Assembly (NCBI GenBank): GCA_017465225.1
Contig: JAFTWQ010000005.1
Span: 1 to 61,285, forward strand
Direction of reading: 5' to 3'
Source: Bacteroidales bacterium
GTDB lineage: Bacteria > Bacteroidota > Bacteroidia > Bacteroidales > UBA932
DNA: 61,285 bases
Shown here: in pieces, positions 6,573-54,189 of the stretch
Numbering within the stretch: position 1 is the first letter of the stretch
Layout: each line of letters starts with the position of its first letter
Notes under the pieces: generated by a model
What the model was told of the DNA's origin: nothing
The model's input: the letters and a program-made list of their open reading frames with translations, nothing else
The model's database searches: none
Position numbers and translations under genes: made by a program

Positions 6573-6684
6573 CGTCGGTACACGAATGAACCTTTTTATG
6601 TACCGACGATATCCATTTAAATGAAATAAAAGCAAAATTATTACCGTCGGTACAAGAAAACACCAGATCTTGCACCGACGGTAA
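6573..6684. repeat. Paired-hairpin repeat, 72-base period (stem family CCGTCGGTAC)
   Basis: Hairpin 1: arms 6573-6582 and 6599-6608, 10 base pairs, 16-base loop. Hairpin 2: arms 6641-6657 and 6668-6684, 17 pairs with one mismatch. The shared core CGTCGGTAC starts at 6573 and 6645, exactly 72 bases apart, separated by A+T-rich sequence. It lies between convergent genes (SMR and esterase). Members with the same geometry but other stems are at 17086, 46908 and 54075. Confidence 0.85.
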
Positions 6685-6707
6685 TTTTAACAATTCAGTT
6701 GAAGCTC

Positions 6708-8282
6708 TTACAGTATTGTCTTCAGCCATGAATAAGCTTCCGGGACATCGTAGTCGCCGCTGTGAGGCATCAGCCATGCGAAACCGACATTCCGGCTGGC
6801 GACCTTCGGATTGCTCCTAATGGCAGCGAACAGCAGGGCTTCGACAGCAAATGAGGTATCCCTGTCATCCATTCCATGGCGGACATACCAGTACGGAGCG
6901 ATGTCGGAAGTGCCTTCGAGAAGATAGTCTATCGCGGAGGTCATCTTGATCTGCATGGCCAGCTCCCTGCCCTCTTCTGTCAGCATATACTCTTCCCATG
7001 ACAAGCCGGTTTCATCCTTTCCGACGCCATTATCCTCCTTGTCATTGTTCCATGAATATTCATTGAACGGGCAATAAGGAACTTCCGCAGATCCGAATAG
7101 TGAATCTTCATTCATGTGAGTCACGAAAAGTCCTTTGTTGGAGAAGGCCGGTGCAGGTTTGAGGGTCGTATATTTCGCGACATAGTAAAGATGCTTGTCA
7201 AGATCATATTCATAGCTTCCGTCATCATTGAACACAAGCCAGCCGTTATTGACACGATTTCCCCTTCGGGTCTTCTTTTCAATATCCTTCTGCATCTGCT
7301 CAGCACCGATTTCTTCTATGGTCCTGGCGATCTCCTCATGCATCAGCCCCGAAATGTATTCCTTGAGGTTTGCCGACGTAATAAGATTTCCTTCCTCGTC
7401 CTTCAGGCCAAGACCACCGACATAACCGGTATACTGTTCAGCCAGTGCCGAAGATGCAGACATAACAGTAGATTCGTCAACGAAAGGATAATTCATCTCG
7501 CCGGTTATGTACATGATGCGCCTTGTATCACCATAAAGCCACTCATAAGCTGCACAGGCATGTCCAAGGTCGGTGATCGGGCAATATCCGATCACTCCGA
7601 GCACATTATCCCCGCAAGCCGGGTCAGACGAATAAGTTCCATCCTTTTCGAGACTGACTCCCGCAGCGCCGATCTCATGGAGAGACGGGAAGAAGTCCGG
7701 GCTGTTTCCGCTGGCAGCAATGAGGGTGGACAAAGCACCGCCACCGGAGGTTCCAGTGATGAAAATCTTCTCGACATCACCGGCAGGTAGAGCCTTGCGG
7801 TTGTGGCGGAGATAGCGGATCGCCGCTTTTGTGTCTGTCATTGTTGCAGGAGAATGTCCGAGATAGGAGCCGTCCACAGGTTCGTTCGCACGGCTGCGGC
7901 AACCATATGAAACCACGACATAACCCTCCTTCAAGGCCACTCCTACCCTATCATATGTTCCGTTATAATCCGATCCTTCCGCAATAGTATGGTCAGGATA
8001 TGAATTTGCAATCCATCCGCCATTGTTTACATAAAACATTATCGGTGAGGACTTTGTAGAGTTCTCCGGAACATATACATTAATCAGCTGATCCTGCGGA
8101 CGGTTCGGATATTTCACATAATTATCCACATACCAGTCGACCTTGACCGGCTGTCCGTCAACAGAGACATTCAGAACCGTTTTCTTTGCAGACCTGAAAT
8201 TGATGCTTTCGGATGTATTTCGTGCATTGAGTGAAAAGCCTAAGAGTCCTGCCAGAACCGTCAGAAATATTATTCGTTTCAT
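6708..8282 (-). CDS. Secreted alpha/beta hydrolase, subtype-B-tannase-like esterase
   Basis: 524 residues from the ATG at 8282, chosen over an upstream ATG because it starts a signal peptide (MKRIIFLTVLAGLLGFSLNA). The nucleophile elbow is G-T-S-G-G (Ser near residue 177), an oxyanion-hole segment YVNNGGW lies near residue 85, and the C-terminus has DDRDTSFAV and MPHSGDYD, which would supply the catalytic Asp and His. The Asp and His contexts remind me of the subtype B tannase/feruloyl esterase group, so an extracytoplasmic esterase acting on aromatic or carbohydrate esters is plausible; the substrate is inference. It is the last gene of the minus-strand GPx-OhrR operon, 5 bases after the DUF5714 gene. 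Confidence 0.78.
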   Translation of the reverse strand: MKRIIFLTVLAGLLGFSLNARNTSESINFRSAKKTVLNVSVDGQPVKVDWYVDNYVKYPNRPQDQLINVYVPENSTKSSPIMFYVNNGGWIANSYPDHTIAEGSDYNGTYDRVGVALKEGYVVVSYGCRSRANEPVDGSYLGHSPATMTDTKAAIRYLRHNRKALPAGDVEKIFITGTSGGGALSTLIAASGNSPDFFPSLHEIGAAGVSLEKDGTYSSDPACGDNVLGVIGYCPITDLGHACAAYEWLYGDTRRIMYITGEMNYPFVDESTVMSASSALAEQYTGYVGGLGLKDEEGNLITSANLKEYISGLMHEEIARTIEEIGAEQMQKDIEKKTRRGNRVNNGWLVFNDDGSYEYDLDKHLYYVAKYTTLKPAPAFSNKGLFVTHMNEDSLFGSAEVPYCPFNEYSWNNDKEDNGVGKDETGLSWEEYMLTEEGRELAMQIKMTSAIDYLLEGTSDIAPYWYVRHGMDDRDTSFAVEALLFAAIRSNPKVASRNVGFAWLMPHSGDYDVPEAYSWLKTIL

Positions 8283-8287
8283 ATATG

Positions 8288-8980
8288 TTACCTGTTTATT
8301 GGAAAGAACGGGCATCTCTTACCGATACACTGCCTGTTTGAAGAAGTGTGGGTGCAGATGATTTCTGACTTATCCATCCTGATGCCGTTGATCTCTTCTG
8401 CATATTCAATGGCGGTAAGAATGGACATGTAAGAATTGCGTTTACAGCATCGGGGGCCTCCTATTTCGCCAAGCCGTGCCAATGAACGTGAGGTCATGAG
8501 ATTGGAATGGCCCCAGGCATCCTCTGCAAGAGGGGTTGAAGACGTGATGATCGACATGAACATGCCTGTGCTGACGGCTGCGCCGCAGGCTCCCCAAAAC
8601 CCGCATGCACCTCCAGGCACCTTGCCTCCTCTGCTGACCATCTCATTGAGAGCTGCAGGGAGGTCGATTTCGCCTCCGGCATTGCTGTAGGCAGTCAAAA
8701 GCGCACATCCTACCATGATATGATGCTCCGGTCCGTGCATATGGCAGAACGGCATATCCATCATCTTCCTCACGATCTCTATAGGATTGCACGACTCTTC
8801 CTTCAGGCATAGTCCGATGACAACGTCTATTCCCTTCGTATGGCACTCATTGCATACATAATGGCCGTTGACGCATCTTGTCTTGCTCATTTCCTGCTTA
8901 TGGCATATGCTGCATTCCATCAGCACATCCTCATTGAGATACTCGAGCGGCGCTTTGCAGATAAGGCATTCTTCTTTCAT
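8288..8980 (-). CDS. DUF5714-like Cys/His-rich protein
   Basis: 230 residues. The N-terminus carries three CxxC-type pairs (CLIC, CSIC, CNEC) plus an isolated Cys-x-x-x-His, a likely zinc-binding module. The central part has MHGPEHHIMV and GGACGFWGACGAAVSTG, conserved blocks I associate with DUF5714, and the C-terminus adds more cysteines (CCKRNS, CTHTSSNRQCIGKRC). Function is not established; in other genomes I recall similar proteins near methyltransferases or radical enzymes, but none is here. It sits inside the GPx-OhrR operon, 13 bases after the upstream membrane protein gene. Confidence 0.72.
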   Translation of the reverse strand: MKEECLICKAPLEYLNEDVLMECSICHKQEMSKTRCVNGHYVCNECHTKGIDVVIGLCLKEESCNPIEIVRKMMDMPFCHMHGPEHHIMVGCALLTAYSNAGGEIDLPAALNEMVSRGGKVPGGACGFWGACGAAVSTGMFMSIITSSTPLAEDAWGHSNLMTSRSLARLGEIGGPRCCKRNSYMSILTAIEYAEEINGIRMDKSEIICTHTSSNRQCIGKRCPFFPINR

Positions 8981-8993
8981 AGAAACAACTTTT

Positions 8994-9404
8994 CTACAAA
9001 GTTACATTTCTCCCCGATTTAAGCAAATATCTTCCTGCAGACAGCAGAAGCATAGGTCCGAGGCCGGTATAGAATGACGCTGTAAAGGCAGAAGGGACGC
9101 CAGGAATATGCTTTAGCGCGATTCCAAGTCCCATCATGAACACCAGCAGAATCCATCCTCGCGTCGGGAATGTCTGCCATATCTTCACATTCTCAGGCAA
9201 GGCGGCGATCCTGTCACAATACCTGTCGACAATCCTGCGGAACATCAGATAGAAAGCAGCAAGGACGGCAGCAGTAATCAGCAGCAGCCACCAGAGTCTA
9301 TCCGATGGCTGCATACCGTATGCGCCGATCCCCTTGGATGTAATTATGATTCCCGGAATTCCCCAGATGACCGCAGCGACGACATACAAATGCTTCCTGT
9401 TCAT
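8994..9404 (-). CDS. Hypothetical four-helix membrane protein
   Basis: 136 residues with four hydrophobic segments (about 5-25, 36-54, 83-103 and 108-126) joined by short charged loops, including a basic stretch RRIVDRYCDR after the second. I do not recognise a family. Gaps of 5 bases to the upstream small gene and 13 to the DUF5714 gene place it in the GPx-OhrR operon, so it is probably expressed under organic peroxide stress. Confidence 0.75.
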   Translation of the reverse strand: MNRKHLYVVAAVIWGIPGIIITSKGIGAYGMQPSDRLWWLLLITAAVLAAFYLMFRRIVDRYCDRIAALPENVKIWQTFPTRGWILLVFMMGLGIALKHIPGVPSAFTASFYTGLGPMLLLSAGRYLLKSGRNVTL

Positions 9405-9409
9405 CCGGA

Positions 9410-9595
9410 TCAGTACTTTGTGAAATTGTACTTCTTCCTTATTTCATCTTTCTCCGCATCGGAAAGGCTGTTGAAATATGCCTTCCAGCCTGGACAGAAA
9501 TTGATATGCCATCTCCAGAATCTTCCGACAAACGAAGCAGGTCTGGCATCATGCTTTGCCCTCATAGGGCATGTTGAACATCTGTAAGTTTCCAT
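9410..9595 (-). CDS. Small conserved protein with CxxCP motif
   Basis: 61 residues from the ATG at 9595; an upstream TTG in frame is less likely. It starts M-E-T-Y-R-C-S-T-C-P-M-R, then has a W-R-W-H-I-N-F-C-P-G-W-K block and a charged helical tail. Three cysteines in a short basic protein suggest metal or redox chemistry, but the function is unknown. It follows ohrR by 12 bases in the operon. Confidence 0.68.
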   Translation of the reverse strand: METYRCSTCPMRAKHDARPASFVGRFWRWHINFCPGWKAYFNSLSDAEKDEIRKKYNFTKY

Positions 9596-9607
9596 AGTCA
9601 ATTGTTG

Positions 9608-10030
9608 TTAAAAGGATTTCATTAGTTTATGAAGCAGAGAATACAGCTGTAGAGCCTCATCGTTTTCCAGCGTGACGCATCCCGCCATCTTCGCAGGGAT
9701 TTCAGCGGCCATGTCATGGAGCGCCTCTCCCCTGTCGGTAATGGTGATGATCACCATACGTTCATCAATCTCCGATCTTTTCCGCTGGATCCAGCCGGCC
9801 TTCTCCATCTTCTTGAGCATGGGCGTCAATGTACCCGAATCGAGGAAAAGAAGTTTCCCCATATCCCTGATACTGATAGACTTATGCTCCCACATCACCA
9901 TCATCGCTATATATTGGGTATATGTGAGGCCGAGGGGTTCAAGAAGAGGCGTATATCTCCTGACAATCTCCTTTGCGCAGGCATAGAGCGGAAAACACAG
10001 CTGGTTCTCCAGTTTCAGTTTCTCATTCAT
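9608..10030 (-). CDS. ohrR: OhrR-type organic peroxide sensor (MarR family)
   Basis: 140 residues, resembling Bacillus OhrR along its length: LENQLCFPLYA at the N-terminus with the reactive sensing Cys (Cys12 here), LTYTQYIAMMVMWEH, LDSGTLTPMLKKMEKAG in the recognition helix, and R-S-E-I-D-E-R in the winged hairpin. Only one Cys is present, so it belongs to the 1-Cys class that is inactivated by mixed disulfide formation or overoxidation. Its ATG overlaps the TGA of the peroxidase gene (ATGA). The promoter in front of the operon contains a near-perfect OhrR box (10521-10537), so autorepression is well supported. Confidence 0.92.
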   Translation of the reverse strand: MNEKLKLENQLCFPLYACAKEIVRRYTPLLEPLGLTYTQYIAMMVMWEHKSISIRDMGKLLFLDSGTLTPMLKKMEKAGWIQRKRSEIDERMVIITITDRGEALHDMAAEIPAKMAGCVTLENDEALQLYSLLHKLMKSF

Positions 10031-10500
10031 AGCAGTTTCAGAATGTCGCTTTCAATCTTTTCCGGTTTGGTCACCGGAGCATATCTTTCGACTACCGTCC
10101 CGTCACGTGAGACAAGGAACTTCGTGAAATTCCATTTGATGTCATTACCAAGGAAGCCGCCCTTCTGCTTCTTCAGAAATCCGAACAGCGGCTCAGCATC
10201 CTTGCCATTTACATCAATCTTTGCAAACAACGGAAATGTAGTATTGTATTTCAATGTACAGAACTCCTGGATCTCATCCTCCGTACCCGGTGCCTGGTGG
10301 CCGAACTGGTTGCATGGGAAATCAAGGATTTCCAGCCCCTTGTCCCTGTATTTGTCGTACAGTTTTTGCAGACCCTCATACTGTGGGGTAAATCCGCATC
10401 CTGTAGCGGTATTCACAATCAGGAGGACCTTCCCCTGATACTCTGTCATCGGCACCTCCACGCCCTTGGCGTTACGTACCTTGAAGTCATAAATCTTCAT
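10027..10500 (-). CDS. Glutathione-peroxidase-family thiol peroxidase
   Basis: 157 residues, a compact GPx of the bacterial Cys type. The peroxidatic Cys35 sits in NTATGCGFTPQY; FPCNQFGHQ and KWNFTKF supply the conserved second Cys, Gln, Trp and Asn. Enzymes of this type usually take electrons from thioredoxin rather than glutathione. There is no signal peptide, so it acts in the cytoplasm on hydrogen peroxide or lipid and organic hydroperoxides. It is the first gene of a six-gene minus-strand operon and overlaps ohrR by four bases, replacing the Ohr peroxidase that usually accompanies OhrR. Confidence 0.93.
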   Translation of the reverse strand: MKIYDFKVRNAKGVEVPMTEYQGKVLLIVNTATGCGFTPQYEGLQKLYDKYRDKGLEILDFPCNQFGHQAPGTEDEIQEFCTLKYNTTFPLFAKIDVNGKDAEPLFGFLKKQKGGFLGNDIKWNFTKFLVSRDGTVVERYAPVTKPEKIESDILKLL

Positions 10501-10520
10501 ATCAATTCAGTTTAGGTTTT

Positions 10521-10537
10521 ATACAATCGAATTGTAT
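10521..10537. promoter_or_regulatory. OhrR operator
   Basis: ATACAATCGAATTGTAT, a 17-base palindrome with one mismatched pair around a central G. It closely matches the known OhrR box (TACAATT-AATTGTA). It starts 4 bases downstream of the -7 box, so bound OhrR would cover +1. Confidence 0.85.
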
Positions 10538-10541
10538 GCCA

Positions 10542-10573
10542 CAAATATAGAAGAAAGATACGAATCGGCCAAA
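10542..10573 (-). promoter_or_regulatory. Promoter of the GPx-OhrR operon
   Basis: Minus strand TTTG (10570-10573), 20-base spacer, TATATTTG (10542-10549): full match to the Bacteroidota consensus. Confidence 0.82.
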
Positions 10574-10670
10574 CAACCCTTACATTAAATTCACATCAAC
10601 CAGGGATTTTGCAGAATTTCATTGCGTAGACGAAAGATTGAAACAAATAAACTGCTAACTTTACGCAACC

Positions 10671-11819
10671 ATGTATTTTCTGCTTCTCATATTGATATAC
10701 ATCGCATTCATCTCATTAGGACTGCCTGATTCAGTCTTGGGTGCGGCATGGCCTTCAATGTACAGGTCATTCGGAGTGCCGGAAGGATCTGCCGGAATCA
10801 TCACGATGCTGATGTATTCGGGCACGATGATTTCCAGCATGGCAAGCGATTGGGTCATCCGCAAGCTCGGAACGGGATATGTCCTCGTGCTGTCGGTTGC
10901 CCTTACCGCCATTACAATGTTAGGGTTCTCAATGGCAGAAAATTTCACCATGCTCTGTCTGATCGCCCTGCCATACGGACTTGGCGGAGGATGTGTTGAC
11001 GCCTCATTGAACAACTATGTCGCGACTCATTACAAAGCCCGCCACATGAACTTCCTGCACTGCTTCTGGGGAATCGGCACTATCATCAGTCCTCTGGTCA
11101 TGGGTGCATTCATTGAAAACGGAGGTGTATGGACACAGGGATACAGGGCCATAGCCATCTTCCAGTTCATACTTGTTGCCGTGCTGCTGTTTTCAGTACC
11201 GCTATGGAAAAGAGACAGCAATGACCACCAGGAAGAAAAAAGTCCGGTCTCATTCAGGAATCTGATCAGTATGCCGGGTGTGAAAGCATCGTTGACTGCA
11301 TTCTTCAGCTATTGCGCCCTGGAGACCACAATGGGCTTATGGACAAGCACTTACCTGTCGGAAGTAAAAGGGATCGACCTCGCCATGGCTACCAAATGCG
11401 GAATGCTGTTTTACATCGGAATAGCGTCAGGCAGATTCATATCCGGTCTCATATCAGAAAAGCTGGGCGACATGAAGCTGATCGGAATCGGAATCTCCGT
11501 GACCATATTGGCATTATGCGCCTTGCTCATCCCCGGGACAGGAGGTCCGATGCTGTACTCGCTGATAATCCTTGCAGGCATGGGATGCGGCCCTATATTC
11601 CCAAGCATGGTGCATAATTCTCCAGAAATCAGCGGTCCTGACGGTTCACAGATGCTGATAGGCTTCCAGCTCGCAATGGCATCGGCTGGCTCCATAACCA
11701 TCCCAGCCATGTTCGGAATCATAGTCAACCGCATATCGATTGCCCTCATGCCATGCTTCAGCCTGATCTTCGCCCTGATACTGCTGGCAATGGTCCTTAA
11801 AATCAGCCGCAGGCATTAG
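10671..11819 (+). CDS. Major facilitator superfamily transporter
   Basis: 382 residues and about twelve hydrophobic helices in two halves. The first helix contains FISLGLPDSVLGAAWP; the helix 2-3 loop has D-W-V-I-R-K-L-G-T-G, the MFS loop-2 signature position; helix 4 has GLGGGCVDASLNNYV. The pattern resembles the FucP-like or sugar/metabolite MFS branch more than drug exporters, but no substrate can be named. It is divergent from the GPx operon. A possible -7 box (TAACTTTA, 10656-10663) ends only 7 bases before the ATG, which would give a nearly leaderless message. Confidence 0.88.
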   Translation: MYFLLLILIYIAFISLGLPDSVLGAAWPSMYRSFGVPEGSAGIITMLMYSGTMISSMASDWVIRKLGTGYVLVLSVALTAITMLGFSMAENFTMLCLIALPYGLGGGCVDASLNNYVATHYKARHMNFLHCFWGIGTIISPLVMGAFIENGGVWTQGYRAIAIFQFILVAVLLFSVPLWKRDSNDHQEEKSPVSFRNLISMPGVKASLTAFFSYCALETTMGLWTSTYLSEVKGIDLAMATKCGMLFYIGIASGRFISGLISEKLGDMKLIGIGISVTILALCALLIPGTGGPMLYSLIILAGMGCGPIFPSMVHNSPEISGPDGSQMLIGFQLAMASAGSITIPAMFGIIVNRISIALMPCFSLIFALILLAMVLKISRRH

Positions 11820-11905
11820 CCGGGAGATCTTTCTGCAGAATATCTGGCTATGCCTGTCACATTCAAGGGAGTTTTTGCATCATTATGGACAAACACATAA
11901 CGAGT

Positions 11906-12496
11906 ATGAAAAACATCTTATTATTTATGGCTTTGCTCATGGGGCTGTCCGCATGTACAAAGTACGAAGACCTCCCATTGAGGCCCGTTTCTTTTGAGAT
12001 CGATGGAAGGAAGTATTATTCAGCAAAAGACACACGTACCATGCATGGAAACATTTTCAACATTCCAGAGCCTGATACATTACGCGTCTGCGAAACAGAT
12101 GGCCGTCTCAGCATTTCCTACACACGCAAAACAGACTTCATCAATCACGACATCGACTTCATCTCTCTCAACATCAAGGGAGTGGATGCCCTTTTCGAAA
12201 CTGGCAATAAGATATCCTTTGACTTGACAGACGGACTTGAGGCGTACCCATCTGTGTACATGTCTCGTGTAAAGACCAGTGACGCTTCTCATTCTGATTT
12301 ATACAAAGCGGTCAAAGGATGGATCGAATTTGATGACATAGACCGGGATGCCAAGACAGTTTCCGGAAGATTCGAGTTCAAGGCCGAGCTGGAAACCGAC
12401 CATCAGGAATGCGGTCATGATAAAGAGATCGAAGTGAAGAAAGGTTCATTTGTTAACATTCCGTTTGCTGTTTCAGCAAACCCAGATCATGAGTAG
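11906..12496 (+). CDS. Hypothetical lipoprotein, paralogue of the next gene
   Basis: 196 residues from the ATG at 11906; an upstream in-frame ATG adds seven residues in front of the signal. MKNILLFMALLMGLSACTKY is a lipoprotein signal with the Cys in L-S-A-C. The C-terminal part has a repeated fold signature, V-S-G-R-F-E-F-K-A ... I-E-V-K-K-G-S-F, that also occurs in the next gene (I-S-G-S-F-E-F-T-A ... I-E-I-T-N-G-V-F). This resembles small DUF6252-like Bacteroidota lipoproteins, a guess at family level. Two bases separate it from the next gene, so they form an operon. Confidence 0.78.
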   Translation: MKNILLFMALLMGLSACTKYEDLPLRPVSFEIDGRKYYSAKDTRTMHGNIFNIPEPDTLRVCETDGRLSISYTRKTDFINHDIDFISLNIKGVDALFETGNKISFDLTDGLEAYPSVYMSRVKTSDASHSDLYKAVKGWIEFDDIDRDAKTVSGRFEFKAELETDHQECGHDKEIEVKKGSFVNIPFAVSANPDHE

Positions 12497-12498
12497 TT

Positions 12499-13080: not shown

Positions 13081-13307
13081 AACAGGGCAGACCTATCGTG
13101 GTGAAGACTATGGACTTATATTGATGCCCAAGACAAGAAGGACGGAGCCGGCTGAACTTAAAGGGTTCAGGATAGAGTGGGGATCGTATTATGGCGACAT
13201 CCTTTCATTTGGAGAGTTCAATGGCCATGAGGGACTGGACATTAGATGGATGGCAAGAAATGCGAATTGAATATGGCCAGGAATCTGCAGATTGTAAATT
13301 GTCTAAA

Positions 13308-13334
13308 TGTCATTCTGAACGTAGTGAAGAATCT
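13308..13334 (+). repeat. Dispersed short repeat (TGTCATTCTGAACG...GAAGAATCT)
   Basis: 27-base copy of the common bacterial intergenic sequence of the type TGTCATCCTGAGCG...GAAGGATCT. Other copies are at 22267-22293, 22304-22330 (inverted) and 51073-51100. Confidence 0.75.
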
Positions 13335-13367
13335 TTTGAAGAGCAAGCAAAAAATTCACTAACTTCG
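13335..13367 (+). promoter_or_regulatory. Promoter of the retropepsin gene
   Basis: TTTG (13335-13338), 21-base spacer, TAACTTCG (13360-13367), one base off TAnnTTTG. It begins one base after the dispersed repeat ends. Confidence 0.55.
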
Positions 13368-13386
13368 CGCCATTACATTCTAATAC

Positions 13387-16310: not shown

Positions 16311-17084
16311 ATGGACAGACGAGGTTTCATTAAACGATCGTTCTTTGCAATGGGATCGCTGGCGGCGATAAAGCTGCTGGAGAATCCGTTGATGGCACAC
16401 GATATGGATACTGTAAGCGCAGACAAGACACAAACGGAAATGAAAAGGATAATGATCATCGACGGCGGTCCGCGCCGCAACATGAACACAGCACAGATGC
16501 TGCAGAAATTTGCAGAGGGAGCAAAATCAGTCGGCAATGATGTAGAGGTGAAGACAGTGCGCCTGTACGACATGGACTATAAAGGCTGCATGTCGTGCAT
16601 GGCCTGCAAACTGAAAGGCAAGGCATCCAACGTATGCCGTTTCAGGGATGCGCTCTCCCCTGTTCTTGACGAGATCGCCCAGGCAGACGGACTGGTGCTT
16701 GGCTCACCTATCTATTTCGGAGAAGTTACAGGACAGATGCGTGCCTTCCTGGAGCGTCTCTCATTCCCATGGCTCTCATACAATGACTATAGCATGACCG
16801 CACCGAAGCGTATGCCGGTAGTCCTGATCGAGACCATGAACGGAATGCCGGAAAGGAACAACAGCAACGGCTTCGGCACGATGGAAGGATGCATCACAAG
16901 GGTCCTCGGAGAACCGCAGCACATCGTTGCATACAACACCTGTCAGGTAAAGGACTATTCCCGCTACGAACTTGGCGGATTCTCCGAAGAAGCAAAACAC
17001 CAGTGGCGTGACGCGCATTGGGAAGAGGACCTTCAGAAGGCGTACGATGCCGGCCGTCAGATGGCCAGCCAATCGACATTTTAA
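16311..17084 (+). CDS. Exported flavodoxin-fold NAD(P)H-dependent oxidoreductase
   Basis: 257 residues from the ATG at 16311; the longer open frame upstream is not hydrophobic and lies in the divergent promoter region. The N-terminus M-D-R-R-G-F-I-K-R-S-F-F looks like a Tat-type signal with weak hydrophobic core, which would fit export of a folded FMN enzyme. The catalytic part starts near residue 45 (RIMIIDGGPRRNMNTAQML), has GCMSCMACK, a Cys-rich loop of the iron-sulfur-flavoprotein type, and VLGSPIYFGEVTGQMRAFLER, the FMN-reductase signature. Role: quinone, nitro or azo compound reduction, unknown in detail. Confidence 0.82.
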   Translation: MDRRGFIKRSFFAMGSLAAIKLLENPLMAHDMDTVSADKTQTEMKRIMIIDGGPRRNMNTAQMLQKFAEGAKSVGNDVEVKTVRLYDMDYKGCMSCMACKLKGKASNVCRFRDALSPVLDEIAQADGLVLGSPIYFGEVTGQMRAFLERLSFPWLSYNDYSMTAPKRMPVVLIETMNGMPERNNSNGFGTMEGCITRVLGEPQHIVAYNTCQVKDYSRYELGGFSEEAKHQWRDAHWEEDLQKAYDAGRQMASQSTF

Positions 17085-17085
17085 C

Positions 17086-17196
17086 CGGTGGTACATAAAT
17101 AACCGCTTTTGTGTACCACCGATACATAAAAACGGGGAGATCAGCATAAAAAGATAACCGGTGGTACAAGAATCCGTAATTTCTTGTACCACCGGT
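17086..17196. repeat. Paired-hairpin repeat, 73-base period (stem family CCGGTGGTAC)
   Basis: Hairpin 1: arms 17086-17095 and 17112-17121, 10 pairs, 16-base loop. Hairpin 2: arms 17157-17172 and 17181-17196, 16 perfect pairs, 8-base loop. The core CGGTGGTAC is at 17086 and 17159. Compared with the 6573 locus both arms have changed in step (C-C-G-T-C-G-G to C-C-G-G-T-G-G and the complements), keeping all pairs. Located between convergent genes. Confidence 0.88.
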
Positions 17197-21568: not shown

Positions 21569-21640
21569 ATCTGTAATATTTACTTTCCCAATAATCGTGT
21601 AAAGTTACGGCTTTACCGCCGCTTTCCAAAACTTTCCTGC

Positions 21641-21892
21641 CGCGAAACGGATGTAGAGGTCTTCTGGTGCGTTTCGCGGTGCTGAAACTGCAGGTTTTGA
21701 CGTTTTTCCCTTCGCGAAACGGAAGTAGGCAGACTGACGTACGTTTCGTGGCACTGAAACGACAGGTTTTTGCGTTTTTCCTGCTGCGAAACGGAAGTAA
21801 GCAGGCTGACGTACGTTTCGTGATGCTGAAACTGCCGTTTTTTACGCGTTCCCTTCTATGAAACGGAAGTAGGGACCGTCACGTGCGTTTCG
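21641..21892. repeat. Four tandem hairpins, exact 72-base period (stem CGAAACG)
   Basis: Left arms begin at 21643, 21715, 21787 and 21859 (the fourth starts TGAAACG); right arms CGTTTCG end at 21676, 21748, 21820 and 21892. Each loop is 20 bases, starting GATGTA or GAAGTA and usually ending ACGTA or ACGTG. Spacers of 38 bases are semi-conserved and contain a second weak inverted repeat (GAAAC...GTTTT). Confidence 0.92.
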
Positions 21893-21995
21893 GAGAACAG
21901 AGGCAACAGAATGGGATCCTGTAAAGAAGGTGTCTGCGAATTAAACGATCATGACAAGGCAAAACTACATGTCCTTTCGGGTGGTGCGAATTCCG

Positions 21996-22076
21996 AAAGC
22001 ACGGAAACCCCTGTATTTGTGCTTTTAAATGGTAAAATACCTGTCGAAAGCACGAAATGGGCCGATTTTGTTCTTT
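21996..22076. repeat. Two tandem hairpins, 51-base period (stem AAAGCAC)
   Basis: Arms 21996-22002/22019-22025 and 22047-22053/22070-22076, 16-base loops; the second has one mismatched pair. Same stem, loop and period as the array at 32017-32150, about 10 kb away. Confidence 0.85.
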
Positions 22077-22094
22077 TAACCGTTACTTTTTCCA

Positions 22095-22200
22095 CGAAAC
22101 GGATGTAGGCAGGCTGACGTGCGTTTCGTAGCACGAAAAGAACCAGTTTTGCCTGATATTCTTCCACGAAACGGAAGTAGAGGTCTTCACGTGCGTTTCG
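22095..22200. repeat. Two further CGAAACG hairpins, 72-base period
   Basis: Arms 22095-22101/22122-22128 and 22167-22173/22194-22200, again with 20-base loops and an exact 72-base step. Continues the block at 21641 after the interruption. Confidence 0.9.
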
Positions 22201-22266
22201 GGGTGCACGGACACAAAGAACGACGAAACAGTCTGCACCTGCAATGTCGAAAGGACAGTAATTCAC

Positions 22267-22330
22267 TGTCATGCTGAACGAAGTGAAGCATCTTTAAGGA
22301 TGAAGATCCTTCGCTACGCTCAGGATGACA
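22267..22330. repeat. Inverted pair of dispersed 27-base repeats
   Basis: Copies at 22267-22293 (plus) and 22304-22330 (minus) match each other at 22 of 27 positions and face each other across 10 bases, forming a large hairpin. Same family as 13308 and 51073. Confidence 0.78.
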
Positions 22331-22417
22331 ATCAGAGCAAACCAGGATGACAATCAGTCCGAACAGGTAAATCATCAGCCCCCAAAAACACGCAAAAACA
22401 AAAAAAATCGTAAAAAT

Positions 22418-32016: not shown

Positions 32017-32150
32017 AAAAGCACAGAAACAGGCTATTCCGTGCTTTTAACGGACAATTCTGCAGTCAAAAGCACAAAAACGGCCGATTTTGTGCTTTTA
32101 AGATTCATTTTGACGTTTAAAAGCACAAAACAGGGGTAAATTGTGCTTTT
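32017..32150. repeat. Three tandem hairpins, exact 51-base period (stem AAAAGCAC)
   Basis: Arms 32017-32024/32041-32048, 32068-32075/32092-32099 and 32119-32126/32143-32150: 8 perfect pairs, 16-base loops, 19-base spacers, steps of exactly 51. In the middle unit pairing continues to 12 pairs around A-C-G-G-C-C-G-A. Loops and spacers differ between units while the stems are identical. Confidence 0.93.
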
Positions 32151-34060: not shown

Positions 34061-34119
34061 AACATACTACTAAATTTTTAGAAGAGAATCTTGCACTTCT
34101 AAAAATTTAGTAGTATGTT
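34061..34119. repeat. 24-base perfect inverted repeat over the first blaI promoter
   Basis: Arms 34061-34084 and 34096-34119 are exact complements, with an 11-base loop. Each arm contains ACTAAATTTTTAG (or its complement), the motif also seen in front of the second BlaI gene (50975-50990). The right arm runs from the -33 region into the -7 box. Confidence 0.92.
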
Positions 34120-44110: not shown

Positions 44111-44114
44111 AACA

Positions 44115-45956: not shown

Positions 45957-45958
45957 TC

Positions 45959-46907: not shown

Positions 46908-47020
46908 ACACCTTGGACGTTTTTGGGCAATTAATTGACCGAGGTGTAAGAGAAATCATGTAAAATGACCATTTAGTGGAACACCTTGGACGGATTTCAG
47001 GGTATTTCCGTCCGAGGTGT
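46908..47020. repeat. Paired-hairpin repeat, 73-base period (stem family ACACCTTGGACG)
   Basis: Hairpin 1: 46908-46919/46936-46947, 12 positions with one A-A mismatch and two G-T pairs, 16-base loop. Hairpin 2: 46981-46994/47007-47020, 14 pairs (one G-T), 12-base loop. The left arms are 73 bases apart. The same stem family is used at 54075. It lies between two plus-strand genes. Confidence 0.85.
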
Positions 47021-47100
47021 ATATGAAAAAACTCGAAACAGTTGCAACAAAATGATGCCGATATGCATCTATGTACAAGAATTCGACAAAGCTGTAATAT

Positions 47101-47652: not shown

Positions 47653-47663
47653 AACGGCACATT

Positions 47664-48362: not shown

Positions 48363-48368
48363 ATGGTA

Positions 48369-48376
48369 CAAATGTA
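48369..48376 (-). promoter_or_regulatory. -7 box of the LytTR gene
   Basis: Minus strand TACATTTG, a full match to TAnnTTTG, ending 6 bases before the start codon. No clear -33 box at the usual distance. Confidence 0.55.
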
Positions 48377-48422
48377 ATGGAAATTGTTGAAATATCCCTC
48401 CTGATGCGCTCAGAATGTGTCC

Positions 48423-48458
48423 AGAGGTGGATTCAACACAGCGAGAGGTGGATTCGAC
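48423..48458. promoter_or_regulatory. Two direct repeats 21 bases apart, probable LytTR operator
   Basis: AGAGGTGGATTCAAC (48423-48437) and AGAGGTGGATTCGAC (48444-48458) match at 14 of 15 bases with a 21-base step, two helical turns. LytTR regulators bind such tandem sites. They end 24 bases before the -7 box of the barrel gene, a position fit for activation. Confidence 0.75.
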
Positions 48459-48482
48459 ATGGCATTTCTACGAGGTTCTGCA

Positions 48483-48490
48483 TAGTTTTG
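48483..48490 (+). promoter_or_regulatory. -7 box of the outer-membrane barrel gene
   Basis: TAGTTTTG fits TAnnTTTG. The -33 position (about 48459-48462) reads ATGG, a poor match, as expected for an activator-dependent promoter. Confidence 0.55.
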
Positions 48491-48515
48491 CAGCAGCTTT
48501 AAAACGTATTTCGCC

Positions 48516-50582
48516 ATGAAAAGATTCATCATTATTTCCATGCTTCTTTCATTGACTTTTTCGATGGAAGCGCAGACTGACAGCCTTATCACAGAGATGC
48601 TGAATGCTGCAGTAATCAGCGACGGCAACATGACCTACAAGATTGACCGGACCACCCATTTCTTCACAAAGGAGCAGATGGCTCAGGCACGCGAAGCAAG
48701 AGATCTTGTTTCCGGTATCCCGGGATTGTTCATAGACCAGCAGAGCAATACCATCAAGACCGTCGGGGCAAAGAATGTCCTTGTCCTGATCAACGGAGTC
48801 AAGGCCAGCGATTATGAACTTCAATTGATTTCCCCTGACAAGGTCAAGAAGGTCGATTATTATGATGTTCCGCCTGTAAGGTATATGGAGGATGCTGATG
48901 TGATGATAAATGTACATACGTCACGTCTCGATACAGGCTGGTCGGGCAACTTCTACGGCAGAGGCGGTCAGATGTACACGAATGCACGCGGTTCCGTGAG
49001 TTATGTGAGCGGCAACAACAAGTTCACGATGGACATAGGGACGCATTTCAACCATAAAAGAAAGATCTGGGATACCGAAGAAGGCATATATTCATGCATC
49101 CTTGACGGGCAGAGCTATCAGTACGACTATATCCAGAAAAGACAGGACTGGGGCAGCCAGTACAGCGGAGGTCTGTCATGGCTGAATGCGAAAGACAATG
49201 ACTATACCCTGCAGATTTCCATGAACCTGCAGGGCGATAAGAGCAGAATGGAGAGGAACAGGGACATCGGTCTGAAATGGGGCGACATCGTGCAGAAACG
49301 AAGCGGACTGACCCAGGACATGGTAAAGACACTGATGCCAGTGGCGGAGGTATATTTCTCGAAGATCATATCGCCTTCAAGCACATTGACATTCGATGTG
49401 CTCGGAACGACATACAGGAATTCACAGAATGCGGTTTCTTCAGAGACGCTTTCAGAAGGGGGCGAAGGAGGTTATAAGGACATCATGGACCTTGACACGA
49501 GGAAAAGTTCTGTCATCGGAGAATTGAACTACCTCTGGACCAAAGGAACCCATAAACTTGATTTCGGGTACAAGGGGGCATATAACTGGCTTCAGAATAA
49601 TCTGGTGAATTGCGACGGAGAAGGAGCTTCCGATGTAAACACATCTACCCACAGGGTTTATGGAGAGTATTCATCCAGAATAAATTCATTCTCATACAGG
49701 TTCAGCCTCGGAGCGACCGGAAACATCAAATCGGGAGACAACGGCTTTTCAGACATAGCCTTCACCCCTACTCTTCTTCTCGGATACGGATTCAGACAGA
49801 AGCACTATATGAGACTGAAACTCGACTCGGAGACCATGATGCCAGGAATACAGCAGATGTCCGACAACAGGATCATGATAATGGAGGGATTCTACAGAAG
49901 TGGCAATGTGAATGTAAGGAACAGCACACGATACGGCTCACAGTTCATGTATGCATTCAATATTCCGGGGAAACTTGCCATGACTGCCGACCTGCATTTC
50001 AACTACACCAAAGGCCAGTTGTACAATGCCTTCGTTGATGGCGGAGACCATTGGATGCTTCAGACAATGAACGGACAATATGGTTCGGCACTTGGAACTA
50101 ACGTCACATTGTCATACGTTCCGTGGAAATTCCTTGAGATATCTCTCGACGGTACTGCTGACTATCAGACATTCAAGGCTAACGCTGAATCAGGTGCTGT
50201 TCACCACTGGTTCTTCCCTGTATATGGAAACATAGCTGCATACTGGAAGGGTTTCACATTGTCATACAGGCATACTCTTGTCGGCCAGTCATTAAGCGGA
50301 ATTTATCTTGAGGGATATGAGAAGATTTCATACATCAATCTCTCTTGGAGAAAGAACAGGCTGACCATCGGGCTGCAGTGTCTGTTCCCGTTTGTAGAGG
50401 ACAAGTTCGTTTCCGAAACGACAGCTGCCTCTCCGGTCCATCACAAGACATCGACAGATCTGCGCACAAAGAACCATGAATTCGGACTCTCATTGTCATG
50501 GAACTTTGTCAAGGGCAAGGGCAAATACTCCAACAAGAGTATAAATAACAGTGACTCCGATACGGGAGTATTTGAATTTTAG
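48516..50582 (+). CDS. Large outer-membrane beta-barrel (TonB-receptor-like, PF14905 type)
   Basis: 688 residues, signal peptide, then a plug-like segment (A-R-E-A-R-D-L-V-S-G-I-P-G-L-F-I-D, N-V-L-V-L-I-N-G-V-K-A-S-D) without the usual N-terminal carboxypeptidase-like domain. Residues ~130-660 are barrel strands typical of the outer-membrane beta-barrel family found with LytTR regulators. Ligand unknown. The C-terminus runs on to D-S-D-T-G-V-F-E-F. Likely activated by the divergent LytTR protein. Confidence 0.85.
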   Translation: MKRFIIISMLLSLTFSMEAQTDSLITEMLNAAVISDGNMTYKIDRTTHFFTKEQMAQAREARDLVSGIPGLFIDQQSNTIKTVGAKNVLVLINGVKASDYELQLISPDKVKKVDYYDVPPVRYMEDADVMINVHTSRLDTGWSGNFYGRGGQMYTNARGSVSYVSGNNKFTMDIGTHFNHKRKIWDTEEGIYSCILDGQSYQYDYIQKRQDWGSQYSGGLSWLNAKDNDYTLQISMNLQGDKSRMERNRDIGLKWGDIVQKRSGLTQDMVKTLMPVAEVYFSKIISPSSTLTFDVLGTTYRNSQNAVSSETLSEGGEGGYKDIMDLDTRKSSVIGELNYLWTKGTHKLDFGYKGAYNWLQNNLVNCDGEGASDVNTSTHRVYGEYSSRINSFSYRFSLGATGNIKSGDNGFSDIAFTPTLLLGYGFRQKHYMRLKLDSETMMPGIQQMSDNRIMIMEGFYRSGNVNVRNSTRYGSQFMYAFNIPGKLAMTADLHFNYTKGQLYNAFVDGGDHWMLQTMNGQYGSALGTNVTLSYVPWKFLEISLDGTADYQTFKANAESGAVHHWFFPVYGNIAAYWKGFTLSYRHTLVGQSLSGIYLEGYEKISYINLSWRKNRLTIGLQCLFPFVEDKFVSETTAASPVHHKTSTDLRTKNHEFGLSLSWNFVKGKGKYSNKSINNSDSDTGVFEF

Positions 50583-50604
50583 TAACTTTAACAAAATTTG
50601 CATT

Positions 50605-50937
50605 ATGACTACAATTTTGACTTCAATCATCCATCTTTTTGTAGAAGGTGGTTATCTCGGAATGTCAATGATAACAATTCTGCTGACTCTCATATTCTTT
50701 GCTGCGTGGAAGGCTCCTGCATGGGTCGAGAACATCGGCAAGATTGCATTCGCTGTCGGACTGATATGGGCTTTTGCAGGATTGAGGCAGGCACTCACCT
50801 ACCTCGCATCGAATCCCGACACAGCAATGGCCATAATATATAAAGGTCTGAAAGTGACCCTCATACCTGCGATTTACGGTGCAATCGTTTATGTCGTTTC
50901 ACAGGTGATTTCGATTTTTCAGAAGCCTCGGCTGTAG
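50605..50937 (+). CDS. Short MotA/TolQ/ExbB-like membrane protein
   Basis: 110 residues from the ATG at 50605. Three helices: H-L-F-V-E-G-G-Y-L-G-M-S in the first, K-I-A-F-A-V-G-L-I-W-A-F in the second, and G-L-K-V-T-L-I-P-A-I-Y-G-A-I-V-Y in the third, which is the MotA/TolQ/ExbB core pattern. No TolR/ExbD partner is adjacent. Might energise the upstream barrel protein; that is inference from position. Confidence 0.7.
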   Translation: MTTILTSIIHLFVEGGYLGMSMITILLTLIFFAAWKAPAWVENIGKIAFAVGLIWAFAGLRQALTYLASNPDTAMAIIYKGLKVTLIPAIYGAIVYVVSQVISIFQKPRL

Positions 50938-50974
50938 GGACTTAAATCAGATAAAAAGAAAAAATTCGTTATTT

Positions 50975-51019
50975 AACTAAATTTTTAGTTGGATAATTAA
51001 AATATTAGTTCTATATTTG
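50975..51019 (+). promoter_or_regulatory. Promoter and operator of the second BlaI gene
   Basis: AACTAAATTTTTAGTT (50975-50990) has 7-base arms around two bases and overlaps the -33 element GTTG (50988-50991); 20 bases on is TATATTTG (51012-51019). ACTAAATTTTTAG is shared with the first blaI promoter arms at 34061-34119. Confidence 0.78.
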
Positions 51020-51072
51020 CAATGTCATGATAATTAAATTACCATCATGGTATAGACATGAACGTAATTATA

Positions 51073-51100
51073 TGTCATCCTGAGCGAAAGCGAAGGATCT
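51073..51100 (+). repeat. Dispersed short repeat (TGTCATCCTGAGCG type)
   Basis: 28-base copy, in the leader of the second BlaI gene, ending 13 bases before its ATG. See 13308 and 22267. Confidence 0.75.
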
Positions 51101-51113
51101 TTAAACAAGAGTT

Positions 51114-51497
51114 ATGGGAGAAAACATAAAGAACAAACCACAGGAGCTTACCAAGGCGGAGCTCGAGATAATGCAGGTTATATGGCAGAAGGAGAAGGTG
51201 CTCGTGCACGATATCCTGGCCGAGCTGCCGGAACCGAAGCCTGCATACAATACGGTATCGACCATCGTGCGAATCCTCGAGAACAAGGGATTCGTGTCGC
51301 ACAAGGCATATGGAAGAACATACGAATACTTCCCTGTCGTAGCGAAGGAAGACTACACGAACACATACATGCGAACCGTTCTGGACAATTTCTTTGAAGG
51401 TTCAGTCAGCCGCATGGTGAACTTCTTCTCATCGCAGAAAAGCATCTCTCTGGAAGAGACCGATGAGATCCTTAGAATCCTGAACGGCGACAAATAG
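51114..51497 (+). CDS. BlaI/MecI/CopY-type repressor (copy 2)
   Basis: 127 residues: winged helix in 10-80 (L-T-K-A-E-L-E-I-M-Q-V-I-W, P-A-Y-N-T-V-S-T-I-V-R-I-L-E-N-K-G-F) and tail F-F-E-G-S-V-S-R-M-V. Close to the family consensus, more so than copy 1. The M56-M23 fusion gene follows after 17 bases. Confidence 0.94.
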   Translation: MGENIKNKPQELTKAELEIMQVIWQKEKVLVHDILAELPEPKPAYNTVSTIVRILENKGFVSHKAYGRTYEYFPVVAKEDYTNTYMRTVLDNFFEGSVSRMVNFFSSQKSISLEETDEILRILNGDK

Positions 51498-51514
51498 CAC
51501 ACAATAACCTCCCC

Positions 51515-54058
51515 ATGTCAGCAATAAGATACATAATTGAAGTCATCATCTGCAGCGGACTGTTTCTTGTCATATACCGCTGGCTTCTCGCCAGAAAGGT
51601 CAGTTTCAGGCTCTGCAGAGCCTACATCATGGCTACAATGATCCTGGCTGCGGCAATCCCGGCCATGGATGTTCCTATGTACACGATCGACGAGCAGAGG
51701 AATCAATATGCCCTTCTCCCTTATCTCATGTCAGATGACATGGCTTTGGAAGACGCCGCAGCTGCAGAGGCGTATTCAGCCGAAACGGCGGCAACAGGAG
51801 ATATGCAGGCTTTAGATGCATCCGCCGTGCAGATGGAAAAGAGCAAGGCAGATGTACGGAAAATCGTCACATGGGCCCTGATATGCATTTACATTCTGGC
51901 TGCAGCTGCATCATTAAGCCTTGTCCTGTACAGTTCATACAGGATATCGCTGCTTCGCAAAAGATCGAAACTCACTCATACTGAAGAATATACCCTTGCA
52001 GAGCACGAGGAGATAAAGACTCCGTTCTCATTCATCAGGACAATTTTCCTGGGATATGATTACGAAAGATATGAGCGCGAGCAGATCATCACACATGAAG
52101 CAAGCCATGTGAGACATGGACATTCCTATGAGCGCATAGCCCTTTCGATCCTCCGCTCGCTGTTCTGGTTCAATCCGTTCTTCTGGATGGCGGAAAAGAG
52201 CCTTGAAGAAGTACAGGAATGGGAGGCAGACAAGGATGTACTCAACGAAGGATACGAACTTGACAAATATAGAACAACCATATTCAAACAACTCTTTGGT
52301 TATAATCCGGATATATCCTGTGGGTTGAATCATTCATTGACAAAACAAAGATTCATTATGATGACTCAATCTCATCGTGGCAAAGGGGCCTGGATAAGGC
52401 TGGCTGCCACACTCCCCGTAATCGCAGCTGCTTTCTTCGCCTTCGGCTGCGGAACAAAAGAGGCCAAAGCCTCAACAGATTTTTCAACGGACCTTACAAA
52501 TGGCACGGAACAGACATATCTCCCTATGTGTCCTCCATGCGACGCTTCTGTGAGCAATTCGTTCGGCGCTAGAACGGACGCCTCAGGTGCGGGTACTCAT
52601 CAGGGCATCGACTATGTCCTTAAAGAGGGTGATCCTGTCTATGCGGCAGCGGATGGTGAAATCTCATCCATCACACGCGACGACAGCAACGGCCTCATGC
52701 TTGTACTGAACCACTCTGACGGCATCGAGACAAGGTATGCTCATCTTTCCAAGATCCAGATTGTGTCGCATCTGAAGATAGAAGGTGGTATGATGACGGT
52801 AAACAACACCTATAATCTTATCACGGATGGCGACCATTCGAATCAGAAGATCAGCGGAAAGGTGAATCGTGGCCAGCTCATAGGCTATGCCGGTTCAACG
52901 GGACGCGCTACGGGTCCTCACCTCCATTTCGAGGTACGCAAAGACGGCAAGCCGGTTGATCCTGCGCCTATGTTCACATCGGACAAGCCGGTGACCGCTC
53001 CTTTCCCTATCTATATTGTCGAAGGCACAAACAAACCGGGAGAAGAATATTTCGCGATCTGTAACGGAAAGCTCTGCAAGATAAACGATGAGATCGGCGA
53101 AGCTGTCAGCAGATATTTTGCAGAAATAGATGACCCGCAGTATGCAACCATCCAGCTTGAAGCAGACAAGGACGTGCCCGAGGCTGTTCTGACCAAGGTA
53201 TCGGAACAATTGAGAAAGGTTCAGGCATTGAAGGTCAGCAAGAGCATCACAGAGAGTAACCCAGGCGAAATCGTGGTCCTGAAAGATGCCACCACGACTT
53301 ATAGCAGGATTGCAAACGGTGCTTTGATAGAGGTCATATATGATCCGAACGAAAGCCGTATCTACATCGACGGAGCCAGACATTCCCTTGATGAAGTCGC
53401 TGAAGTGATCGGTGCCAAAAGGGATTCATCTGACAAGCCGTATGAATTCACTGTCCAGATCAAGGCCTCAGGGGATACCAGAATGGGAATCATCACCGAC
53501 ATAAAGAATGAGCTCCGCACCATCAATGGAATACGCCTGCTCTATACATTGGACGAAATGGTAACCCCTGACCACCCGTATGCAGAAGCCGAAATAGACC
53601 CATACTACAAGGTAGAGACATACAAGGAAAGCCGCAACAATATCATTGTCATCAAGACTAATGCTGCTGACAGATACCTGATAGGAGATAGACCGGACTA
53701 TCTTGACGACAAAGTCCTGGAAAGAGTGAAAAGTTACATTCTCAACAAGGAGAACAACCCAGACCTTCCTGACAAGACAGATAAGGAATTCACTCTTCCT
53801 GACGGCAGAATCATAACTTATCCCGTATCCCAGGCAATGATACTGATGCAGAACGACAGAGGGACCAGTTTCGAGGGATATCAGGCGGTAAACGCATTCG
53901 TCCAGAAAGCCTATAGGGAACTTCGCAACGATCTCGCTACAGAACTTTTCGGAAGAGCACTAGCTGAATTGTCCGATGCAGAAACAGCTATCATAAGACA
54001 GGCAATACCGATGAATGTCTGCGAAGCGGAGCCTAAAGACGCTCCTGCAAGAAGATAA
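51515..54058 (+). CDS. M56 (BlaR1-like) metalloprotease fused to M23 peptidase
   Basis: 847 residues. Four membrane helices (about 5-25, 32-50, 115-140 and 291-312). The M56 site H-E-A-S-H is near residue 191 with E-W-E-A-D as third-ligand region. After helix 4, where BlaR1 has its penicillin sensor, comes an M23 (LytM) domain with complete zinc residues: T-H-Q-G-I-D-Y near 360 and G-P-H-L-H-F-E near 468. A roughly 330-residue C-terminal region of unknown fold follows. Such M56/M23 proteins occur in Bacteroidota, but their role is not established. It should regulate the BlaI just upstream. Confidence 0.9.
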   Translation: MSAIRYIIEVIICSGLFLVIYRWLLARKVSFRLCRAYIMATMILAAAIPAMDVPMYTIDEQRNQYALLPYLMSDDMALEDAAAAEAYSAETAATGDMQALDASAVQMEKSKADVRKIVTWALICIYILAAAASLSLVLYSSYRISLLRKRSKLTHTEEYTLAEHEEIKTPFSFIRTIFLGYDYERYEREQIITHEASHVRHGHSYERIALSILRSLFWFNPFFWMAEKSLEEVQEWEADKDVLNEGYELDKYRTTIFKQLFGYNPDISCGLNHSLTKQRFIMMTQSHRGKGAWIRLAATLPVIAAAFFAFGCGTKEAKASTDFSTDLTNGTEQTYLPMCPPCDASVSNSFGARTDASGAGTHQGIDYVLKEGDPVYAAADGEISSITRDDSNGLMLVLNHSDGIETRYAHLSKIQIVSHLKIEGGMMTVNNTYNLITDGDHSNQKISGKVNRGQLIGYAGSTGRATGPHLHFEVRKDGKPVDPAPMFTSDKPVTAPFPIYIVEGTNKPGEEYFAICNGKLCKINDEIGEAVSRYFAEIDDPQYATIQLEADKDVPEAVLTKVSEQLRKVQALKVSKSITESNPGEIVVLKDATTTYSRIANGALIEVIYDPNESRIYIDGARHSLDEVAEVIGAKRDSSDKPYEFTVQIKASGDTRMGIITDIKNELRTINGIRLLYTLDEMVTPDHPYAEAEIDPYYKVETYKESRNNIIVIKTNAADRYLIGDRPDYLDDKVLERVKSYILNKENNPDLPDKTDKEFTLPDGRIITYPVSQAMILMQNDRGTSFEGYQAVNAFVQKAYRELRNDLATELFGRALAELSDAETAIIRQAIPMNVCEAEPKDAPARR

Positions 54059-54074
54059 CTTAACCCACAGCGAG

Positions 54075-54189
54075 ACCTTGGTCGGTTTTTGTAAAATAAT
54101 TGACCGAGGTGTAGGGATAATCACATAAATCACCTCTTTTTAATAACACCTTGGACGGTTTTTGAAGCATTTCCGTCCAAGGTGTTATT
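54075..54189. repeat. Paired-hairpin repeat, 73-base period (stem family ACACCTTGGACG)
   Basis: Hairpin 1: 54075-54084/54101-54110, 10 pairs with two G-T, 16-base loop. Hairpin 2: 54142-54158/54173-54189, 17 perfect pairs, 14-base loop. The shared A-C-C-T-T-G-G cores are 73 bases apart. Stem shared with 46908. Lies between convergent genes, where it may also terminate both. Confidence 0.87.

Follow-up and report, generated by a model that had tools for sequence, protein, structure and literature searches.

Related repeat systems

REPINs, which include the doublets of Pseudomonas and the BIMEs of E. coli, are short intergenic doublets with a fixed spacing (71 bp between the 16-mers of a GI doublet) and compensatory changes (PMC3116915), and they form repeat families that each have a RAYT (PMC3116915, PMC6006769). 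The copy number of REPs and REPINs usually exceeds 100 per genome (PMC2817692). The TnpAREP subclass 2.6, or RAYT group 5, is found in Bacteroidetes, is associated with 'atypical secondary structures' and is characterized by the signature YIH[QN]NP and a model of 179 aa; the consulted passages of PMC6006769 give no hairpin geometry. The TIRs of TIRtrons (Di Nocera 2013) are non-GTAG repeats flanking RAYT-type genes, many of them arranged as dimers or clusters and some of them grouped into families, and some share a GGGGWSAS motif (PMC3733652).

The hairpin pairs analysed here were found in a Bacteroidales bacterium (UBA932). The window, i.e. the whole stretch of DNA analysed (61,285 nt), is the entire contig C71 of a 2.35-Mb, 78%-complete genome. 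The pairs are of a known kind (REP-RAYT) in an unusual and well-defined form, a fixed two-hairpin unit devoid of a GTAG tag. With a probability of about 0.87, they are REP-like doublets, gene-free units of 112–113 nt made of two 12-16-12 hairpins (arm, loop, arm) located at a distance of 71–73 nt, with a domesticated Y1 HUH tyrosine transposase from a divergent RAYT subfamily, here called subfamily b, as their cognate enzyme. The preliminary description of this DNA had named the REP-like elements of RAYT systems as the nearest analogue, and the doublets flanking RAYT genes (see below) support this comparison.

Like REPINs, the doublets are intergenic, have a fixed spacing, show compensatory changes and have a RAYT per family. 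Unlike REPINs, each half is a 12-16-12 hairpin of its own, A/T tracts are phased and copies number tens at most. In REPINs, two REPs in inverted order close a single long hairpin; in the doublets, the first and second loops of 116 units share 0.47 identity in direct and 0.44 in inverted orientation. When six nucleotides are taken at each of the 168 hairpin feet of 42 units, GTAG occurs once (0.9 expected) and GGAG four times (2.9 expected). Copy number is low for REPs, with 9 hairpins of family IV and 22 of family III in the 78%-complete assembly. They are called REP-like doublets of a divergent RAYT subfamily rather than members of the REP or REPIN families because neither the GTAG tag nor a high copy number, which mark the well-studied ones, was found. 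As in subclass 2.6, RAYTs from Bacteroidetes are flanked by non-canonical structures that have copies elsewhere in the genome (PMC6006769); subfamily b differs by its motif, Y-x-L-R-N-A/P-x-H-H in place of YIH[QN]NP, and by its size (about 305 aa versus 179 aa for the model). The TIRs of TIRtrons also are non-GTAG repeats that flank RAYT-type genes, often as dimers, but PMC3733652, as far as consulted passages go, reports no fixed two-hairpin frame for them. IS200/IS605 elements likewise combine a Y1 HUH enzyme with hairpins in direct orientation on both sides; unlike them, the present loci have two hairpins per side at a fixed spacing, and gene-free doublets are found elsewhere in the genome. 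The literature search, which extended to a minority of subscription papers, found no publication with a title or abstract opening that describes the doublet geometry.

Hairpin doublets of the window

The hairpin features of the window are the following:

6571..6682, unstranded: locus A, doublet, family IV stem GCCGTCGGTACA / ACCGTCGGTACA, loop 16, spacing 72
17084..17196, unstranded: locus B, doublet, left arms ACCGGTGGTACA, spacing 73
21640..21895, unstranded: family III array, stem CGAAACGGA, four 12-16-12 hairpins, spacing 72
21994..22079, unstranded: AAAGCAC-type / GCAC hairpins, family I (different RAYT subfamily), spacing 51
22092..22203, unstranded: family III doublet, stem CGAAACGGA, spacing 72
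32017..32150, unstranded: AAAAGCACAAAA-type array, family I, three hairpins, spacing 51
46908..47020, unstranded: locus C, doublet, family V stem ACACCTTGGACG, spacing 73
54073..54185, unstranded: locus D, doublet, family V stem AGACCTTGGTCG / ACACCTTGGACG, spacing 73

Loci A to D and the two CGAAACG blocks of family III (four copies and two copies) have a common frame made of a 12-nt arm, a 16-nt loop and a 12-nt arm. The distance from loop start to loop start is 72 nt in locus A and in both CGAAACG blocks and 73 nt in loci B, C and D. The single layout with 72–73-nt steps announced by the preliminary description is thus borne out by the recomputed hairpins. The 16-base loop attributed to the first hairpin was also retrieved, but all hairpins fit the 12-16-12 frame, and the 'longer stem' attributed to the second corresponds to additional base pairs within the 16 nt, to which loci A and D add pairs beyond the frame.

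This geometry is commoner than expected by chance: six pairs (loop of 16, distance of 71–73 nt, arms scoring at least 8/10) are present in the window versus a mean of 0.05 and a maximum of 1 in 60 windows simulated with a second-order Markov model. In 432,786 nt of the genome, 48 hairpins have an arm score of at least 11, versus 1, 5 and 4 in three simulations. When folded as single-stranded DNA, loci A to D have z-scores of -6.1 to -8.3, and none of 200 shuffles per locus folds as well. No Rfam family matches the window at the gathering score. All copies had been described as intergenic; this holds for the family IV and V hairpins (0 of the 8 matched in a 433-kb sample lie inside an ORF), while the second CGAAACG block overlaps a 107-aa ORF, which is taken as spurious.

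Two other palindromes were observed in the window. Another type of palindromic repeat (TGTCATGCTGAACGAAG ... CTACGCTCAGGATGACA, with a 22-nt direct repeat) adjoins a CGAAACG block at about 22267–22364. The longest inverted repeat of the window hairpin list is perfect, with 24-nt arms and an 11-nt loop (34061–34119).

Stem families and dispersed copies

Stems are shared by families and are not private to loci. Locus C shares 75% identity with locus D over 111 nt. Five more sites of the same genome (C49:34k, C53:36k, C53:38k, C59 and C85) have the stem of locus A, exact or with 1–2 bases changed, and locus B differs from family IV at two positions, in all four arms. The joint change of both arms noted previously stands but the specificity is that of the family, not that of the locus. 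Loci differ in their stems because they belong to different families, which go with RAYT lineages; a copying process that would rewrite both arms at each locus, as was proposed, is unneeded.

The family V pattern (ACACCTTGGACG[16]CGTCCAAGGTGT, up to 3 mismatches) was retrieved from 5 of 200 genomes of the genus, with 5 matches in the own genome, 11 in G024, 8 in G080, 2 in G193 and 3 in G211, versus none for the reversed control. Most of the family V loci listed are doublets with hairpins 73 nt apart; L124 is a lone hairpin. One copy has flanks common to G024:C58 and G193:C3 and therefore was inherited at one site. At locus D, relatives of the neighbouring transporter gene are only 33–38% identical, which makes the comparison with an empty site uninformative. 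Neither an empty site nor an insertion or cleavage event was observed for any doublet. The family IV pattern (CCGnnGGTACA[16], up to 2 mismatches) is present in 7 of 200 genomes versus 3 of 200 for the control, with 9 matches in the own genome and one in each of six others. Among the latter, the match in G211 is clearly a true family copy and that in G090 carries a paired change (CCGGTGCTACA/TGTAGCACCGG); the remaining four look like chance matches. The family III pattern (CGAAACGGA[16], at most 2 mismatches) matches 25 of 190 genomes versus 9 for the control, and single matches outside the own genome may therefore be due to chance.

An array of tandem CGAAACGGA hairpins, whose higher-order unit measures about 144 nt, is located in the own genome at G000:C49:77794-78335. 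The loops of its neighbouring hairpins look complementary (GGACACTCC / GGAGTGCC).

A divergent RAYT subfamily

The Pfam domain Y1_Tnp was detected in 143 of 200 genomes of the genus (E ≤ 0.001). Out of 71 Y1_Tnp loci examined, 47 passed a RAYT motif filter; one or more hairpins lie close to the gene in 41 of these 47, and in 18 the stems of the two sides look alike by eye, the stem varying from gene to gene. A profile built from 32 of the 47 retrieved more divergent RAYTs in six genomes. The search for a RAYT-type transposase suggested by the preliminary description was fruitful, as the own genome carries at least seven RAYT-type genes, one of them decayed.

Subfamily b, which carries the 72/73 spacing class, comprises proteins of about 305 aa with the signature MKKTYHLCLS..Y-x-L-R-N-A/P-x-H-H. 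The HuH histidines and the tyrosine are invariant in 40 of 40 proteins, and H-x-H, Tyr and Asn are common to 21 diverse RAYTs. The subfamily b profile aligns with canonical RAYTs in hhalign (98.5%, E 3.9e-15), and the AlphaFold model of the L261 RAYT (pLDDT 94) shows a strand bearing HuH and a helix bearing Tyr. The curated models tried miss most of these proteins: Pfam Y1_Tnp matches 12 of 40 subfamily-b proteins at E ≤ 0.01, and NCBIfam REP_Tyr_transpos matches none of the four tried, a canonical RAYT also falling below its cut-off. A sequence search of the PDB with subfamily b returned no transposase; with canonical RAYTs, it returned the transposase entries 2xo6, 2xm3 and 2xma (E of about 2e-4), which we take to be ISDra2.

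Subfamily b was identified in 113 of 340 genomes (E ≤ 1e-60). Among 188 genomes of the order (148 genera), it was found in the own genome alone at E ≤ 1e-30: the other member of the genus in this draw lacks it, as do all 186 genomes from outside the genus.

RAYT genes flanked by doublets

Subfamily-b RAYT genes adjoin doublet copies and are often located between them, and copies are scattered over intergenic sites. In the own genome, a RAYT of 304 aa without internal stop (C85:1610-2524) lies between two AGCGTCGGTACA doublets with a spacing of 73, one upstream and one downstream, which belong to the family of locus A. A second one (C81) is flanked upstream and downstream by ACCGTCCGACAA/ACCGTCCATCAT doublets with a spacing of 73; its stem matched no dispersed copy in the 433-kb sample. 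A third one (C25) has a doublet at 72 upstream only and one hairpin downstream. In other genomes, the RAYT of G024:C9 is followed by a ACACCTTGGACG pair at 73 nt, of the family of loci C and D, and preceded by a perfect hairpin with a weak partner at 73 nt (8/12 paired). The L261 RAYT, 78% identical to that of C85, has the locus A stem ACCGTCGGTACA in one doublet hairpin. The stems of the L261 and own C85 RAYTs are of the CGTCGGTACA type, and those of the L265 RAYT of the ACACCTTGGACG type. Like REPs, families IV and V are intergenic palindromes with several copies, which also flank a RAYT gene.

No RAYT with the exact stem of locus B (ACCGGTGGTACA) or of family III was found in the genomes searched. 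The nearest lead for family III is a related case only, the more distant subfamily-b RAYT of G078:C34, beside which GAAACAGA hairpins follow one another in five steps of exactly 83 nt. Two other candidates were rejected: the canonical RAYT C80:102709 as the doublet enzyme, since it pairs with another palindrome family (CCCACGTGC hairpins), and a family IV hairpin that accompanies a subfamily-e RAYT in G090 as a repeat of that enzyme, since it is one-sided.

Among 40 distinct RAYTs, a pair of hairpins with 16-nt loops at 71–73 nt is present in 44 of 80 flanks. In a grid of loop size against distance, the fullest cells are loops of 18 and 16 at 73, which are nested readings of the same hairpins; with one shuffle per flank, no shuffled cell exceeds 1. 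A named set was composed of the best 80 of 113 loci, mostly from ruminant-gut Bacteroidales by title, and partly overlaps the set of 40 RAYTs. Doublets occur in 64 of its 158 flanks, versus 2 of 139 distant flanks (1000–1450 nt away) and 2 of 3160 shuffles. At loci whose flanks are both readable, they are present on at least one side in 44 of 78 cases and on both in 20 of 78. If a spacing of 82 is allowed and the best pair is counted, a unit is found at 63 of the 80 named loci and at all three loci of the own genome; 17 of the 80 lack such a pair under these criteria. The geometry is absent from ten more distant members of the subfamily (A5 E of about 1e-98 to 1e-106), i.e. those of 20 loci taken that were parsed after the motif filter.

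In 38 of 46 loci, the upstream unit resembles the downstream one more as a direct than as an inverted repeat; the two spacings are equal in 38 of 46. As IS200/IS605 ends lie in direct orientation, this arrangement would also suit solo ends left by decayed RAYT-carrying elements that move as a whole, rather than copies of the doublet only. Decayed RAYTs do exist, such as the one of the own genome at C80:55071-55829, which has 51-nt-spaced units on either side. However, the copies of the window show no trace of a gene, although a solo end would itself be one doublet. Such an origin is unlikely.

Co-diversification of stems and RAYTs

Doublet stems co-diversify with the RAYT while the geometry stays. 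Stem identity is correlated with RAYT identity (Mantel r 0.57, reached by 0 of 2000 permutations; 67 rows, one held twice, related RAYTs not being independent): RAYTs that are 80–90% identical share 0.92 of their stem letters and those that are 60–70% identical share 0.53. In a tree of 66 RAYTs, related branches hold related stems, and spacing changes 9 times versus a mean of 22 and a minimum of 18 in 300 shuffles. The paired substitutions whose search had been recommended were found: among 58 distinct stems, each of the 12 positions is occupied by several types of Watson–Crick pair, and 622 of 696 cells are paired versus 242 ± 11 after shuffling. The latter figure is too high, as the hairpins had been selected for their pairing; the flank counts (64/158), unlike this statistic, have their own controls.

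Spacing and helical phase

In the flanks of the named RAYTs, hairpin distances cluster at 71–73 and 82, with few at 75–80. The step of about +10, to a spacing of 82, is seen in two clades located apart on the RAYT tree, and the jump from 71–73 to 82–83 amounts to one helical turn. In 39 distinct 73-nt units, AA/TT steps in the loops and the spacer have a period of 10.4 nt, reached in none of 5000 column permutations and in 5 of 5000 circular shifts, the shared ancestry of the units being only partly controlled. The same A positions are found in window units C and D, and two of the three in B. The A/T phasing and the spacing are in keeping with a constraint acting on the double helix.

Pairs of operators recognised by a nucleoid protein or by a regulator that binds double-stranded DNA, for which the RAYT neighbourhood would be secondary, would account for spacings of whole helical turns (51, 72–73, 82–83) and for A/T tracts phased at 10.4 nt, but stems follow the RAYT tree and differ among RAYTs of one genome, neither of which is needed by a single host protein, and this explanation is very improbable.

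If the doublets are instead read by their RAYTs, a bolder and rather doubtful proposal is that these enzymes recognise both hairpins as one complex on double-stranded (cruciform) DNA and not on a free single strand, because spacing is quantised in helical turns (51, 71–73, 82–83) and A/T tracts are phased at 10.4 nt. Stems might then be read in a modular way, and a radiation of enzymes so far seen in this genus only might have tried out dozens of stem 'words' built on a single fixed scaffold, a natural recognition code.

Subfamily e and other RAYT-hairpin systems

Another RAYT subfamily, e, has the signature FWHIYTDG..YVNRNA, and at E ≤ 1e-20 its profile has matches in 322 of 400 genomes, of which the weaker ones may be other divergent RAYTs. 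Palindromes such as TCCGTAAAA, AAAAGCACAAAA and GTCCATGAAA flank several of 31 subfamily-e loci, and hairpin pairs with a centre distance of 51 are present in 30 of 62 flanks of 32 distinct loci. AAAGCAC-type and AAAAGCACAAAA-type hairpins flank the subfamily-e RAYTs L173 and L205 in relatives. The GCAC hairpins of the window, at 51 nt, fit with this subfamily.

Across the genus, subfamily-e RAYTs go with several palindrome types spaced at 51 nt and represent another radiation of this kind. The decayed subfamily-e gene of the own genome (G000:C80:55071-55829) has two stops and lies between TCCGTAAA hairpins at 51-nt steps. Within a single array (G000:C53:41617-41760), the stem shifts from CATCCGTAAAA to GTCCATGAAAA in both arms; these stems resemble palindromes found beside two different subfamily-e RAYTs. 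A canonical RAYT (G000:C80:102709-103632; L009, L146) is flanked in direct orientation by CTACCCACGTGC hairpins that share a downstream GTAGG...CTCCACGG, a third hairpin copy being located at C10:7802.

Model for the doublets

The following model, inferred from work on TnpAREP (hairpin recognition, cuts near the feet and spread; passages of PMC8266576 and PMC6006769), can be drawn for the REP-like doublets. The RAYT would bind the folded doublet and nick near its feet. By analogy with TnpAREP, it would move doublets, and may have distributed copies among intergenic sites, for the most part downstream of a gene. Some copies of the window probably belong to families whose RAYT is missing from the incomplete assembly. 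Stem letters would be free to change provided that all arms and the enzyme change too, whereas loop, spacing and helical phase would change little.

The location of the copies also bears on whether the hairpins could be ordinary (bidirectional) transcription terminators or mRNA 3' stabilisers with an incidental spacing. Their stems are strong and, in the 433-kb sample, no intergenic family match lies between divergent genes versus 40 of 157 background spaces (rough gene model), but without the 107-aa ORF, the space that holds the CGAAACG blocks of the window would be a divergent one. Moreover, a terminator scan called neither C nor D, a weak argument because its loop limit is 8. Since terminators predict neither a common 16-nt loop, nor a 71–73 spacing, nor stems shared with and flanking a transposase gene, there is scarcely any chance that this explanation is right.

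Significance

The doublets account for many intergenic palindromes in the genus, whose subfamily-b RAYTs are largely missed by the curated models tried. The genus bears on how RAYTs read REPs and on how new REP families arise. It contains tens of enzyme-hairpin pairs built on a single fixed scaffold in which all stem positions vary, so that a recognition code would be readable by comparison. The helical quantisation of spacing is unexpected for enzymes that are thought to act on single strands.
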